This document shows positions 59,171 to 64,000 of a stretch of 64,000 bases of DNA, in pieces. Every line of letters begins with the position of its first letter. The first letter of the stretch is position 1. The translations under genes were made by a program, and so were the position numbers. Origin of the DNA: Chryseobacterium tructae (GTDB taxonomy: Bacteria; Bacteroidota; Bacteroidia; Flavobacteriales; Weeksellaceae); NCBI RefSeq assembly GCF_030409875.1, contig NZ_JAUFQR010000003.1, positions 1 to 64,000 of the forward strand. Reading direction: 5' to 3'. The notes below the pieces were generated by a model, which ran no database searches, was not told where the DNA came from, and saw only the letters and a list, made by a program, of their open reading frames with translations.

Positions 59171-60092
59171 TTATTTTTTTGGAAGAAAAACTTCTGCAAG
59201 CATACATCTTGCACTTCCGCCTCCGTTTACTTCGATCGTATTTAAATCAGAATAAATAATTTCACAATACTTTCGATAGCTGCTACTTGCTCTGAAGTTA
59301 AAGATTGATAAGCTGTCTGGCTCATCACAAGGAACTTTTCACCTTCTTTATTTTGAACCTGAAGCATATTTCCTGCAAATTGCTGCATTTGTTCTTCTGA
59401 AATTTCAACGATTTCTTTTCCTGAATTCTTGATGGTTTCAATCACTTTTTGTCTTTCCAGCTCATCATCAATACAATCAAGACAGATGACAACAAACTTA
59501 TCTGCTACACACATCATTACATTGGTATGATAAATAGGAAGTCTTTCTGTACCTACAGTCTGATAAGAGTGGAAAACAATAGGTGTAAAGTCATATTTTT
59601 CACAGAATTCTCTGAATAGATTTTCATCCAATCTCAAAGAAACGGATCCATAAGCAATCTTGTTATCGTGATCAAAGATCATACTTCCTGTTCCTTCCAG
59701 AAATGCCCCTGAGTTTCCGGAAATGACCAGTCATCAATTTCAGCCACTTCAAATCCCTGATCCTTGATGCTTTCAATAATATCATCTCTTCTCTCCACTC
59801 TTCTGTTGGAAGCGAACATTGGATATAAAACTACTTTTCCATCTTTATGGAAGCTTACCCAATTGTTTGGGAAAATAGAATCCGGGGTATGAGGATCTAG
59901 TGTATCTTTTATGGTAATTACATTGATTCCTTTTCCTCTCAGTTTTCCAACGAAGGTATTGAATTCTGCCAAAGCTTTTGACTGAATATCAGAACCTGTT
60001 TGTTCTACCTGAAAGTAATTGTTTTTTGCAGTTTCTGCGTTGTAACCGAATGCAATCGGTTCTATCATTAATACGGTATCTGTTGTTTGCAT
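59171..60092 (-). CDS. ctlX: Citrulline/arginine amidino-hydrolase CtlX-like (two apparent frameshifts)
   Basis: An amidinotransferase/ADI-fold protein, read as one 307-residue gene after two one-base repairs. It starts at the ATG at 60092 (MQTTDTVLMIEPIAFGYNAETAKNNYF); upstream in-frame residues are low complexity. SIFPNNWVSFH and VLYPMFASNRRVERR are typical of the CtlX group. At about 59700 one base restores GHFLEGTGSMIFDHDNKIAYGSVS. At about 59269 one base restores ESYCEIIYSDLNTIEVNGGGSARCMLAEVFLPKK, ending at 59171, which supplies the catalytic Cys (ARCMLAE). The His is in IYHTNVMM. The family hydrolyses citrulline or dimethylarginine-like compounds. It adjoins speD. Confidence 0.88.
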
Positions 60093-60176
60093 TTTTTTTT
60101 GATTAAAAGATTGAAAATTAAAAGATTGAAAGATTAAAACTCTTTCACTTTCAAACACTATAACTCTCCCACTCAA

Positions 60177-61091
60177 CTACTCTCTTACAAGCGGCATTGT
60201 AGAACATCTCAATAAACCACCCATTTTAGAGATTTCTCTGTAAGGAATTTCTTCAACGGTCATTCCCCATACATCCCTCAGGTGATTGTTCATTCTGGTA
60301 AATGCTTTATCTGAAACTACAATATCCGGGGAAATAGAGAAAATATTCGGGAACATTTCAAACATTTCTTCGTCGTTGATGTGGAAACAGTTTTCTTCTC
60401 CGAAAATATCGATGATCAAACGGTAGTCACTTTCGTCTACGAATCCGTTTTTGTAGATGATACATTTATCTTCTCCTACCGGATTGAAAGTACAGTCAAG
60501 ATGTAAGATCCCTTCAAACGGAACTTTATCATTTTTCTTCAATTCAAGATCAATGATTCTTTTCTTTGGAAAGTATTCTTTTAAAATTTCAATGGCATAC
60601 TCGTTCGTTCTTGCCGTTTTATAGTTTCTATAGTCTTCGCTGAAGCAGGTTCCGATAAAAATAAAGTCATTCCATACAATGACATCACCTCCTTCAATAT
60701 GAGCAGTTTCCGGAAGATTAATAATCTTTCTCCAGGCCACTTTTTCAAATACACTTTTGTATGCTTCCTGCTCATCAGCTCTATCAACAATCACATTGGA
60801 AATGATCATTTTATCATCAATTACAAATGCTACATCTCTTGAAAAGACCTGATTATAGTCTTGGATAATGCTTGGACGAAGTACTTCAACGTCATATTTT
60901 TTCAAAACTGCTTCGAAAGCGTTCATCTCATTGATGATATCCACTTCCTTAGGATAAATGTTGTGTTCGATTGAGTAATATGACTTGGCGTCATAACTTT
61001 CCTCTAGTGTGGGAACAGCTCCCAATGAATTAGGCTGGCCTAGAACTACTGACTTCAGCCTTCCCGTTTCGTTTTTAATGTTTAGTCTCAT
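60177..61091 (-). CDS. Arginine deiminase/dimethylargininase-like hydrolase
   Basis: A 304-residue guanidino-group-modifying enzyme. The ATG at 61091 gives MRLNIKNETGRLKSVVLGQPN. Family motifs are VFSRDVAFVIDD, TAHIEGGDVIVWNDF (the E-G-G-D substrate site), GILHLDCTFNPVG (catalytic His and Asp) and GGLLRCSTMPLVRE (the nucleophile Cys). It could be arginine deiminase, dimethylargininase or a related amidinohydrolase; the product would be citrulline in either case, which the downstream CtlX-like protein could act on. A TATATTTG box sits upstream. It opens a co-oriented run of genes that reaches the polyamine cluster. Confidence 0.92.
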   Translation of the reverse strand: MRLNIKNETGRLKSVVLGQPNSLGAVPTLEESYDAKSYYSIEHNIYPKEVDIINEMNAFEAVLKKYDVEVLRPSIIQDYNQVFSRDVAFVIDDKMIISNVIVDRADEQEAYKSVFEKVAWRKIINLPETAHIEGGDVIVWNDFIFIGTCFSEDYRNYKTARTNEYAIEILKEYFPKKRIIDLELKKNDKVPFEGILHLDCTFNPVGEDKCIIYKNGFVDESDYRLIIDIFGEENCFHINDEEMFEMFPNIFSISPDIVVSDKAFTRMNNHLRDVWGMTVEEIPYREISKMGGLLRCSTMPLVRE

Positions 61092-61110
61092 AAAGATTTA
61101 TGCAATACTA

Positions 61111-61118
61111 CAAATATA
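61111..61118 (-). promoter_or_regulatory. Probable promoter -7 box of the deiminase-like gene
   Basis: On the minus strand this reads TATATTTG (TAnnTTTG), 19 bases before the ATG at 61091. It would start the whole amidinohydrolase/polyamine run. Confidence 0.55.
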
Positions 61119-61311
61119 AGTAAAGGTCTCTATCTAGAAAATTTTTGGTTTATTTTATGCCTGAAATTTGCCGTCCTTAAGCTCCTTCTTTTAGCGAAAT
61201 TCTCCTCCTATTCAGCAAACCGTAGTATAAAGCATACAAAAACATCTACAACTTACTATATTTCATCTACATAAGTACGAAAAAAAAGATTTTTTTATAA
61301 TTTAATATCCT

Positions 61312-61360
61312 ATATTAGTGATATAATTTTCGCGAAATTATAGGTACTAAAACTTAACTA
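61312..61360 (+). promoter_or_regulatory. Conserved upstream region of peptide 1
   Basis: ATATTAGTGATATA (61312-61325), a TTTCGCGAAA palindrome just after it, GAAATTATA, then ACTTAACTATTAACATCAAA before the ATG. The same blocks, in the same order and nearly the same spacing, precede peptide 2 (61760-61808). The remaining 61119-61311 shows no gene. Confidence 0.65.
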
Positions 61361-61380
61361 TTAACATCAAAAACAAAGTT

Positions 61381-61542
61381 ATGAACAAGAACATTCAAGT
61401 GCTGAAAAAAGCACAAAAATTAGGTAGAGATCAACAAAAATCAGTAATTGGAGGAGCAATTGCAGGCAGAAGATGCTGCGAGTGGGATGATGTCACTGGA
61501 AAATGTTTCATCTGGACATGTGACAGATGTATGTGCCCATAA
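61381..61542 (+). CDS. Gly-Gly leader Cys-rich peptide 1 (bacteriocin/RiPP-like precursor)
   Basis: A 53-residue peptide. The leader, residues 1-25, begins MNKNIQVLKKAQKLGRDQQ and ends KSVIGG, the double-glycine site cut by C39-peptidase transporters. The 28-residue core has six Cys: CC at 32-33, then 42, 47, 50 and 52, in the order CCEWDDVTGKC-FIWTC-DRCMCP. Cys residues make up over a fifth of the core, so disulfides, metal binding or maturation are likely. Upstream bases match those of peptide 2, 450 bases away. A GCCG-stem terminator follows. No transporter or maturase is inside the window. The bacteriocin-type role is inferred from the leader. Confidence 0.85.
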   Translation: MNKNIQVLKKAQKLGRDQQKSVIGGAIAGRRCCEWDDVTGKCFIWTCDRCMCP

Positions 61543-61552
61543 AATATCCCAG

Positions 61553-61582
61553 GCCGTTTCACAGATTGTGAAGCGGCTTTTT
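61553..61582 (+). terminator. Terminator of peptide 1
   Basis: GCCGTTTCACA (61553-61563) and TGTGAAGCGGC (61567-61577) form an 11-pair stem with one G-U, then a five-T run, 10 bases after the stop codon. Confidence 0.9.
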
Positions 61583-61759
61583 ATTAATTTGGCACTAATC
61601 CTGTTCAACACAAAAGCCTGCTTTCTCATATTTCAGAGCCATGATAGATTTTTTTATTTTTATTTAAAAAAATAGTAAAATTCTACTTATTTCATTACAA
61701 CTTATTATATTCCAAACATATAATGATATTTTTTTCTTTTTAAAATAAAATAAATTCAT

Positions 61760-61808
61760 ATATTAGTGATATAGTTTCCGAGAAATTATATTGTTTACAA
61801 CTTAACTA
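61760..61808 (+). promoter_or_regulatory. Conserved upstream region of peptide 2
   Basis: Repeats ATATTAGTGATATA (61760-61773), TTTCCGAGAAATTATA and ACTTAACTATTAACATCAAA from the region before peptide 1. The palindrome is TTTC-CGA-GAAA here, with the TTTC and GAAA arms conserved. Confidence 0.65.
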
Positions 61809-61830
61809 TTAACATCAAAAAATCAAAATC

Positions 61831-61995
61831 ATGAACAAAGGCAATTCAGTGCTTAAAAACGCTAAAAAATTAGGCAGAGAGGAACAAAAATCAGTAATCG
61901 GAGGAGCCGGCCCTACTAAACCAAGATACTGTTGTGAGTGGAATCCCAATGGTAGCTGTAGAATCTGGACATGCGGTAACTGTGTTTGTCCGTAA
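61831..61995 (+). CDS. Gly-Gly leader Cys-rich peptide 2 (paralog of peptide 1)
   Basis: A 54-residue paralog. The leader MNKGNSVLKNAKKLGREEQ ends KSVIGG, as in peptide 1. The core begins AGPTKPRYCCEWNPNG and ends SCRIWTCGNCVCP; Cys at 34, 35, 43, 48, 51 and 53. Invariant against peptide 1 are CCEW, C-x-IWTC, C-x-C and the final Pro, while the loop between CCEW and the third Cys varies in length (8 versus 7). A terminator follows, convergent with the TonB receptor gene. Confidence 0.85.
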   Translation: MNKGNSVLKNAKKLGREEQKSVIGGAGPTKPRYCCEWNPNGSCRIWTCGNCVCP

Positions 61996-62002
61996 AAATA
62001 AT

Positions 62003-62026
62003 AAACCTGCTTTTTAAGCAGGTTTT
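62003..62026. terminator. Bidirectional terminator after peptide 2
   Basis: AAACCTGCTT (62003-62012) and AAGCAGGTTT (62016-62025) form a perfect ten-pair stem with a T run, between peptide 2 and the converging receptor gene whose stop is at 62030. Confidence 0.85.
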
Positions 62027-62029
62027 CTT

Positions 62030-64000
62030 TTATCTTGTTCTGTTTTCTTCCTCTGTTCTCTGAGTTTCTTTTGCCTGATATTTTGAGCCACCAAAACTAT
62101 AGCTCAGTGAAAAATAGAATCGGCTGTTATCCCACCTATGCTTAAAGCGATTGTCCATAATCTGTTTATGCCTGAACTCTAAACTCAGGTCATAAGAATC
62201 AAAAATATTATTATACCCAATCTTTGTACTAAGTTTATTATCCAGCCACGATTTTTGAAGAGATAAGTCTACGTTATAACGTGGTTTAATAATATAAAGA
62301 CTGTTTCCGGTTTTGGATTCATAATTAGCAAACAGATTAATCGTATATCCTTTGGGTAAAGTAAATACCTGATTCACTCTTATCTCATAATTATAAATTT
62401 CCAGTGCAAAAACCTGATCAAGGTAAGGTCTGAACTCATAATTATAATATCCTGCAATCTGGCTTGTCATATTCCACCACTTTGTAATTTTCACTGGAAA
62501 ACTTGTTTCCAAGACTGCAAAATTACGGTACGGAAGGTTGCTTCCCAGATATTCCAATACATTGGTTTTTGGATTATATATTGGATAGCGGGCCATGACA
62601 TCTTTTTCTTTTCCTATCGTAAAACTTGTGATCCAATTTTTATATCGGTAGGTTGCTTTGATCTGGCTGGTAAAAGAAGGCTGCAAATAAGGGTTTCCTA
62701 TCGAGTAATTCAAAGGACTGAAGTAATATCGAAATGGATTAAGTTGTGAAAAAACAGGCCTTGTTATTTTTCTGCTATAGGATAGTGAAAGTTCATTAGA
62801 TTTATTGAATGTATAGTTTGCACTGAAGGATGGTAGCCATTCCAGATAATTTCTTGAAACAATAGAATCTACAGTAACAGCATCAGAAATACTATTTGTA
62901 TTTTCAAGCCTTAATCCCGCATTGATCTGAAGTTTTCCAAATTTTTGTTTATATGCTAAATACCCTGCAAATATTTTCTCTTTATAGGAAAACAGATTAC
63001 TTCTATCAGGATCAAATGCAAACTGGTTATTCACAGATAAAGTATCATACCTGATATTGTTGTTGGTATCAGACTGGCTATATTTAAGTCCTGCCTCTAC
63101 CTCTGCATCCCCTATTTTTTGAGAGGCATCGATCTGCCCCGTATAAATATTTATTTTATTCTCAAGATCAGATCTCCAATAGGACAATACCTCCGAAGAA
63201 GCCTTATCTCTGTTAATAAAATCGTCTTTCTGTTTGTTTTTCACAGAGAGATAATTACCTAAAAAATTTATTTTAAATCCTTTACTTTGAAACGAATAAT
63301 CAGTAGTAATCCCATAATTGTTCTGGAAATAGTACATTAAATTTTCATTTCCGGTATTAAAAACAAGTTGTGTTTCACTTTTATCAGTAGTATATAATGA
63401 ACCTAAGCGCATCCGGTCAATATCCCTGAAACTGCCTCTGAGGTTCAGTCTTAGCCTATTTTTATCATTCAATCTAAAATCAGCTCCTGCCTGAATGTTG
63501 TACACATTTATTTGATCCTCCTGATAGGTTCCGGTTCTCATAACATTGGTATTAGCCAGCCGTTGTAGGGCATTGTATCGATAAAATGAGATTCCATCGT
63601 TATATCCTCCCTGCAAACTGTACGCTACTTTTTCTGTGTTATAAGTAAGGTTCAGAGTATTCTCCCGGGAATTGAACTTATATGCATACAGATTCCCGCT
63701 ATAATTTCCTTTCCAACCAAGATTGGCGTTTTTCTTCAGCTTAATGTCGATAATTCCTTTAAACTCTGCATCATATTTTGAAGATGGATTAGTGTTCACT
63801 TCAAGAGATTCTACCATTTCCGGCGATAAAGACCGCAAGTAAGCCTGTAACTCTTGATTACTCATTACAATAGGCTTACCATCAATGAATATGGCTGGGG
63901 TTACTCTTCCCCCAATAAAGATTCCGTCTTCCTGATCAACAGTAACTCCCGGTGTTCTTCTCAGTACATCAAGGAGATGAGTTGAAGTTTTAAAATCCTT
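62030..64000 (-). CDS. TonB-plug outer-membrane beta-barrel protein, partial
   Basis: The C-terminal 657 residues of an outer-membrane receptor-like protein; the 5' end lies outside the window. The open frame runs through the edge: before the internal Met at 63865 it reads KDFKTSTHLLDVLRRTPGVTVDQEDGIFIGGRVTPAIFIDGKP, a TonB-plug sequence. Then comes PEMVESLEVNTNPSSKYDAEFKGIIDIKLKK and a barrel (QLNPFRYYFSPLNYSIGNPYLQPSFTSQIKATY) ending FSLSYSFGGSKYQAK. It is related to the two receptors at 45-50 kb. It is convergent with the small peptides and lies only 35 bases from the end of peptide 2. Confidence 0.9.
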   Translation of the reverse strand, partial: KDFKTSTHLLDVLRRTPGVTVDQEDGIFIGGRVTPAIFIDGKPIVMSNQELQAYLRSLSPEMVESLEVNTNPSSKYDAEFKGIIDIKLKKNANLGWKGNYSGNLYAYKFNSRENTLNLTYNTEKVAYSLQGGYNDGISFYRYNALQRLANTNVMRTGTYQEDQINVYNIQAGADFRLNDKNRLRLNLRGSFRDIDRMRLGSLYTTDKSETQLVFNTGNENLMYYFQNNYGITTDYSFQSKGFKINFLGNYLSVKNKQKDDFINRDKASSEVLSYWRSDLENKINIYTGQIDASQKIGDAEVEAGLKYSQSDTNNNIRYDTLSVNNQFAFDPDRSNLFSYKEKIFAGYLAYKQKFGKLQINAGLRLENTNSISDAVTVDSIVSRNYLEWLPSFSANYTFNKSNELSLSYSRKITRPVFSQLNPFRYYFSPLNYSIGNPYLQPSFTSQIKATYRYKNWITSFTIGKEKDVMARYPIYNPKTNVLEYLGSNLPYRNFAVLETSFPVKITKWWNMTSQIAGYYNYEFRPYLDQVFALEIYNYEIRVNQVFTLPKGYTINLFANYESKTGNSLYIIKPRYNVDLSLQKSWLDNKLSTKIGYNNIFDSYDLSLEFRHKQIMDNRFKHRWDNSRFYFSLSYSFGGSKYQAKETQRTEEENRTR

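Follow-up and report, generated by a model that had tools for sequence, protein, structure and literature searches.

Two genes in the window (the whole stretch of 64,000 nt of Chryseobacterium tructae DNA that was analyzed) encode Cys-rich precursors with a CCEW motif and a Gly-Gly leader, which together with their relatives constitute an unnamed family of the genus Chryseobacterium. On the sequence evidence presented below, it is rather probable that these precursors give rise to a secreted, disulfide-bonded peptide of approximately 28 residues, exported and matured in trans by a C39-VKOR machine. In the pathway proposed here, each gene would be transcribed from its own promoter, consisting of a box and a hairpin (61307-61341 and 61755-61789), after which the precursor would be cut behind the Gly-Gly pair and exported in trans by a C39-ABC/HlyD system encoded on another contig. 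The VKOR-thioredoxin of the exporter operon would oxidize the six cysteines to generate three disulfides, and the same exporter would handle many unlinked Cys-rich peptides carrying a Gly-Gly leader.

Two six-cysteine precursor genes and their locus

The original prediction described two ORFs of 53 and 54 codons with leaders ending in KSVIGG and cores containing six cysteines, and the coordinates, lengths and Cys spacing all agree with this description (Table 1). Both ORFs start with ATG and lie on the same strand. That this architecture is more than a chance pattern is supported by its recurrence at 67 loci, where each of 86 copies has the Gly-Gly pair and 85 have the full six-Cys core. The two peptides were described as differing mainly in the loop between CCEW and the third Cys; the spacing indeed differs there (seven versus eight residues), but the peptides also differ between the Gly-Gly pair and the CC pair. 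Similarly, each ORF was stated to have its own terminator: a terminator-like stem is present 3' of each, but that of gene 2 also scores on the minus strand and is thus probably common to the convergent gene. As a terminator scan of positions 60000-64000 returned three stems against a shuffle mean of 1.8, these stems are by themselves weak evidence.

Table 1 Positions of the features of the CCEW precursor locus within the window.
Feature	Position	Strand	Basis and remarks
Arginine-deiminase-type (ADI) protein	60177..61091	-	Pfam ADI; fixed neighbor, outside the system
Promoter-like box of gene 1, TTC[CA]TAYMTTAGTGATATAATTT type	61307..61329	+	Pattern search
Hairpin/palindrome ataatttt[CGC]gaaattat 5' of gene 1	61323..61341	+	Conserved
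Precursor peptide 1	61381..61542	+	53 aa; class B, CDRCMCP end; ORF, orthologs at fixed locus
Leader of peptide 1, 25 aa, Gly-Gly	61381..61455	+	Alignment, position counts; predicted cut site
Core of peptide 1, 28 aa, six Cys	61456..61539	+	Alignment
Terminator-like stem 3' of gene 1	61551..61579	+	Terminator scan
Promoter-like box of gene 2	61755..61777	+	Pattern search
Hairpin/palindrome atagtttc[CGA]gaaattat 5' of gene 2	61771..61789	+	Conserved
Precursor peptide 2	61831..61995	+	54 aa; class A, CGNCVCP end; ORF, 69-83% identical relatives
Leader of peptide 2, 25 aa, Gly-Gly	61831..61905	+	Alignment; sub-threshold NF047798 leader_Chryseo match
Core of peptide 2, 29 aa, six Cys	61906..61992	+	Alignment
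Terminator-like stem 3' of gene 2	62003..62025	both strands score	Terminator scan

A Pfam scan of both peptides returned no family, and the three hits of a PDB sequence search were all polyubiquitin (E 0.19 to 1.2). AlphaFold modeling gave pLDDT values of 57 and 65, with two short strands at 33-37 and 43-47.

The genes are flanked on the minus strand by genes for the ADI protein, a DDAH-like protein, an AdoMet decarboxylase, a DUF4178 protein and a spermidine synthase. The DDAH-like neighbor, which we take to be ctlX-like, adjoins the peptide gene together with ADI in 67 of 68 named loci. In the window this gene (59242-60176, minus strand) is present as two overlapping frames, the split being a frameshift or an assembly error; in several relatives, the two matched ctlX/DDAH-like pieces share a frame and are separated by 12 nt. 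Scanning of ten neighboring proteins revealed no domain of a peptidase, transporter or maturase save a weak MFS match, which sits within the spermidine synthase protein. An outer-membrane beta-barrel protein is encoded convergently on the 3' side of gene 2 and was considered as a partner; a match was present in 47 of the 68 named loci (elsewhere in the locus in the case of L098), but also in five of 30 negative loci, and this candidate was rejected.

The family is conserved in the genus and probably inherited in place

A protein search started from a single sequence retrieved five relatives, and one based on a profile retrieved 60. All those with an organism given belong to Chryseobacterium, and nearly all are deposited as 'hypothetical protein' with one entry named 'RSAM-modified peptide', so that the peptides are not 'uncalled', as they had been described. 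Orthologs keeping both the leader and the Cys spacing were found in the genus: among 148 genomes sampled from the genus, at least 126 contain a peptide match at E<=1e-3 and at least 103 a strong match (defined as E<1e-20), the counts being lower bounds with 45 candidates scored. Across 346 genomes of the order, at least 34 match at E<=1e-5 (again a lower bound, at most 19 candidates having been scored per genome), 32 of which are Chryseobacterium while the other two, G191 and G310, are weak matches in one other genus.

The window and 66 of the 68 named loci together yielded 86 copies, with one copy at 54 loci, two at eight, three at four and four at one; L155, with a broken frame, yielded no copy, and L159, a contig-end fragment, was placed outside the count. 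The pattern CC-x(7,8)-C-x4-C-x2-C-x-C-P is kept in 85 of these copies, and a scan by the leader pattern alone likewise returned 86 matches, 85 with the six-Cys core; the named loci were retrieved by conserved leader or core words, and conserved copies are therefore favored in all such proportions. On the basis of the core, 38 copies were assigned to class A (CGNC/CGDC), among them peptide 2 of the window, and 43 to class B (CDRC and similar), among them peptide 1, leaving five copies outside both classes (class C).

The two peptides had been thought to differ in the manner of a diversifying toxin or signal, which is at odds with the pattern observed, in which constraint is stronger on the core than on the leader and the gene is kept at one locus. 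In class A (38 sequences), pN/pS is 0.10 for the core versus 0.29 for the leader, with the core pS of 0.79 being saturated, and in class B the corresponding values are 0.17 versus 0.23, where the core value was derived from the 24 of 43 sequences that are of modal length; the five class C copies were omitted. Diversifying selection as a rule was therefore rejected, Chryseobacterium sp. PMSZPI being a one-strain exception. In this strain the leader precedes dissimilar cores, one of which has an acidic tail, in one locus copy (L133:6001-6998) and in three further proteins, P0054, P0056 and P0057.

Of the genomes in which a strong match was lacking (45 in all), 30 had a locus that was read as a negative; none contains an intact peptide ORF, and one of them (G072) holds a decayed copy, a second broken copy being that of L155. 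When peptide presence was mapped on a tree of the ADI gene (96 rows, with L097 left out for its short match and L155 counted as positive), nine presence/absence changes were required versus 25.8 in shuffles, none of 500 shuffles being as low. The bootstrap had not settled; well-supported branches require at least four changes, and 52 positive rows fall in one weakly supported clade. We read this sequence-based pattern as a peptide gene that has probably been inherited in place and lost occasionally.

The leader compared with C39 substrates

The precursors were predicted to be of the Gly-Gly-leader type and probably cut by a C39 exporter, a view which is strengthened by the conservation of the leader and by the presence of a C39 exporter in the genome. 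Homologs lacking the Gly-Gly site were looked for and not encountered among the 86 copies, all of which have Gly-Gly at the leader end, Leu at -12 and Ile, Val or Leu at -4. The leader thus ends as that of a C39/PCAT substrate and shares its hydrophobic residues at -4 and -12; for the C39 protease LahT, the Gly-Gly, -12 and -4 positions matter according to the available part of the published work (PMC6363468). The Leu that the C39/PCAT motif has at -7 is replaced by Gln in 85 copies and by Lys in one. This Gln is the chief point against C39 cleavage: the same source, as far as it was accessible, indicates that in LahT substrates Leu at -7 matters, with Lys or Asp there being strongly harmful and Gln being absent from the reported set. 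At -3, where Ala is usual in LahT substrates but substitutions are tolerated (PMC6363468, available part), Ile, Met, Thr, Val, Lys and others occur and Ala occurs in none of the 86 copies.

The deviating Gln, together with the density of cysteines and the CxxCxC end, could also point to a metal- or redox-binding peptide that remains inside the cell or in the periplasm instead of leaving through a C39 system. We consider this quite improbable, given that the Gly-Gly pair is invariant, that the leader resembles those of 35 over-threshold leader_Chryseo peptides of the same genome, and that VKOR and a strong C39 match are present in every one of the 103 strong-peptide genomes described below.

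A VKOR-linked C39 exporter co-occurs with the peptides

The C. tructae genome contains two full-length C39-ABC exporters, in addition to a C39 match interrupted by an inner stop (G000:C1:4328140-4328574, in a decayed-looking region) and one partial match. Beyond the window, where a search for a C39 transporter had been proposed, the exporter at C2:128570 (C39 domain C2:128570-128935) was found to share its operon with genes for a VKOR-thioredoxin fusion, another Cys-rich Gly-Gly peptide and HlyD. The second exporter (L060:6177-10270) adjoins a Gln-rich Gly-Gly peptide and a 422-aa protein without a Pfam match. Given that the VKOR-linked exporter is not linked to the CCEW genes and that a second full-length exporter is present, the assignment of the cognate exporter is not fixed.

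Presence tables for the 148 genomes were compiled by hand from the search results. C39 matches are present in 145 genomes, of which 138 have a best E<1e-33 ('core-like C39', a cut set after the values were seen) and seven a best E of 4e-32 or weaker, leaving three with none. VKOR is present in 138 genomes, being the same 138 with a core-like C39. The strong-peptide genomes (at least 103) all fall within these 138 (Fisher p 3e-6, ancestry ignored), and no strong peptide match was found in the ten genomes without VKOR and with an absent or weak C39. Peptides matching leader_Chryseo (NF047798) at E<=1e-3 occur in at least 136 genomes, and nine of the 12 genomes without such a match are among the ten that lack VKOR; exceptions are three of the 148 genomes which have VKOR and C39 without a leader_Chryseo match, and one which has a match without VKOR or C39. 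Joint absence of VKOR, C39 and peptides is what a shared machine predicts, although some of the co-occurrence can be accounted for by common descent.

From the 17 strong-peptide genomes that have a single C39 match, ten were read, and in all ten VKOR-Trx, C39-ABC and HlyD are found together, with partial alignments for VKOR in L162 and for HlyD in L169. Gly-Gly peptides were recovered by regular expression in five of the ten.

Widely scattered over the C. tructae genome are 35 leader_Chryseo matches that exceed the cut-off, a number that rises to 60 at E<0.1; across the genus sample, up to at least 48 per genome were obtained at E<=1e-3 (56 candidates scored). Eight of 14 control genomes match at E<=10, which renders sub-cut-off matches less sure, while none does so over the cut-off and none at the setting of the genus survey. 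The leader_Chryseo peptides read in the C. tructae genome are mostly Cys-rich, with cores that are unlike one another.

A promoter-like box and hairpin upstream of the precursor genes

The box TTC[CA]TAYMTTAGTGATATAAT is located upstream of 80 of the 86 copies, with its TTAG positioned 57-70 nt from the ATG. The regular expression itself fixed TTAG.GA.AT; in the independent columns just upstream, T-C and T-A are kept in 80 of 80 copies and the first T of TTC in 70 of 80. From the six copies without a regular-expression match, two have a variant box and the other four are downstream tandem copies which may be co-transcribed. Bacteroidota promoters have a -7 element, TAnnTTTG, which the box resembles with an A in place of a T. 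When up to three mismatches were allowed, the pattern matched only these two genes in the C. tructae genome (one mismatch each), compared with three chance matches, each at three mismatches, for the reversed pattern; two matches were reached in five of 100 shuffles of the window. The box is absent from all 30 negative loci read. A sigma-70 consensus scan returned 16 sites versus 16.7 expected, the box not being among them.

The palindrome 3' of the box can form a hairpin of at least 7 bp in 65 of 72 distinct sequences versus 17% of shuffles, in which single bases after the seventh position were shuffled and relatedness was ignored; in some sequences both arms have changed. Rfam was searched for a known RNA family and gave only a Trp_leader match of 21.6 bits, below the gathering threshold of 41, and this candidate was discarded. 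The weak match, along with the order of a short ORF followed by a terminator, is what a Cys/Trp-rich attenuator leader peptide, not being a product in itself, might leave behind. We find this hardly credible in view of the sub-threshold score and of the amino-acid-level constraint throughout the core, and as the next long ORF 3' of gene 2 is convergent, there is nothing there to attenuate.

Comparison with known systems and possible role

One of the closest known families is NF047798 leader_Chryseo ('bacteriocin-like protein'), with which the precursors share the leader register KLxRExxKSVxGG and whose many scattered Cys-rich members are encoded in the same genome; the window peptides differ in having a 7-residue N-terminal extension and Gln at -7. 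Relative to its cut-off of 23.5 bits, peptide 2 scores 16.2 and peptide 1 gives no match, and among 16 diverse homologs, seven reach E<=1, the best of them having E 0.0088. NF047792, the CCPGW family putative bacteriocin, shows weak whole-length similarity (E 0.0019), but at 18.1 bits versus a cut-off of 80, and with CCPGW where the present peptides have CCEW.

Bacteroidetocins are, in the available part of their description, four-Cys peptides with a Gly-Gly leader, whose production involves a C39-type ABC transporter together with a thiol oxidoreductase and, as it seems, no immunity gene (Coyne et al. 2019, PMC6671954). The CCEW system is similar in its Gly-Gly leader, its cysteines, the C39-type ABC transporter, the thiol oxidoreductase and the fact that no immunity gene was found. 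According to the same partial source, it differs in leader length (15-16 aa in bacteroidetocins versus 25 here), in the core (42-48 aa with four Cys versus 28-29 aa with six), and in gene arrangement, bacteroidetocins having four clustered genes including one for a five-TM protein, whereas here the exporter is unlinked and neither a thiol oxidoreductase nor a C39 transporter was found among the ten neighbors. Since the NCBIfam scores fall below the cut-offs and the leader, Cys and linkage features of bacteroidetocins are not shared, the peptides belong to none of the families tested. By analogy, maturation may nevertheless follow the same route as in bacteroidetocin precursors or in those of class II bacteriocins.

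The product could accordingly be a bacteriocin of the bacteroidetocin kind, matured in the same manner and killing or inhibiting other Bacteroidota. The exporter operon is in part like that of bacteroidetocins, the nearest NCBIfam families are labeled 'bacteriocin-like' or 'putative bacteriocin', and PMSZPI shows diversified cores behind the same leader. We nonetheless regard this role as somewhat doubtful, as the core is near-frozen in 85 of 86 copies and the gene is found at one locus, whereas bacteroidetocins are strain-restricted, their first two regions occurring in few strains and one on an ICE as far as the accessible text goes (PMC6671954). A nearly frozen core in a gene that stays put suggests a conserved job involving a fixed partner more than warfare between strains, and a role of the secreted signal type, which is a reasonable possibility if short of a probable one, is placed slightly ahead of the bacteriocin role. 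Lack of an immunity gene cannot decide between the two, given that bacteroidetocins are also without one found.

Were the cysteines modified by an enzyme whose gene lies elsewhere, through radical SAM, MNIO/DUF692, ATP-grasp or lanthionine chemistry, the product would be a modified RiPP. One homolog is deposited as 'RSAM-modified peptide', the C. tructae genome has one MNIO gene (C1:3068954), and SPASM is slightly more common in strong-peptide genomes (58 of 103 versus 17 of 45, Fisher p 0.049); both graspetides and a RiPP produced with DUF692 are on record for Chryseobacterium, as judged from the accessible parts of that literature. We deem such modification unlikely. A SPASM match at E<=1e-5 is absent from the C. 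tructae genome and from 45 of the 103 strong-peptide genomes, which implies that SPASM modification is not general, and the ten neighboring proteins scanned contain no maturase domain. ChrA, the precursor of the chr DUF692 RiPP, is likewise a Cys-bearing precursor from the same genus, but, in the portion of its description available, has a C-terminal CPACGMG motif and a clustered DUF692 enzyme (PMC10214503), whereas the present cores lack this motif and end in C-x-C-P, with no DUF692 among the ten neighbors.

The preferred reading, in which disulfides are formed by a VKOR-linked exporter acting in trans, can be extended to a broader picture, which we put forward tentatively: a single core-genome VKOR-thioredoxin/C39/HlyD machine may fold and export dozens of unlinked cargos, among which the CCEW peptides would be a conserved, privately regulated and genus-wide extracellular peptide signal or effector of Gram-negative bacteria, with its own box and RNA hairpin. 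If true, a widespread environmental genus would secrete a whole set of disulfide-rich peptides through one exporter, with one member conserved enough that it probably does something general, and the private box would provide a handle on the timing of its production. Prochlorosin precursors are scattered. ProcM is a promiscuous enzyme acting on many precursors, with up to 79 for SyncM, as stated in the available parts of two reports (PMC10783134, PMC9872173), and the likeness lies in one machine serving many precursors; according to the same partial sources, prochlorosins differ in employing a lanthionine synthetase and Nif11 leaders, whereas VKOR-linked disulfides are proposed here and the core of this member is conserved rather than variable. 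In PMC titles and abstract openings, mostly excluding subscription papers, no description was found of the family or of a VKOR-linked exporter with scattered Gly-Gly peptides in Chryseobacterium.

Further Cys-rich peptides were observed outside the six-Cys set. The C. tructae genome encodes two four-Cys paralogs (C1:660986 and C1:661360), and a four-Cys relative of the core is present in another family of the order (G191, L213:3832-3996). In G310 (L214:355-1555), a Cys-rich Gly-Gly peptide is encoded directly 3' of an ORF that matches thioredoxin below threshold and, by eye, looks like VKOR.
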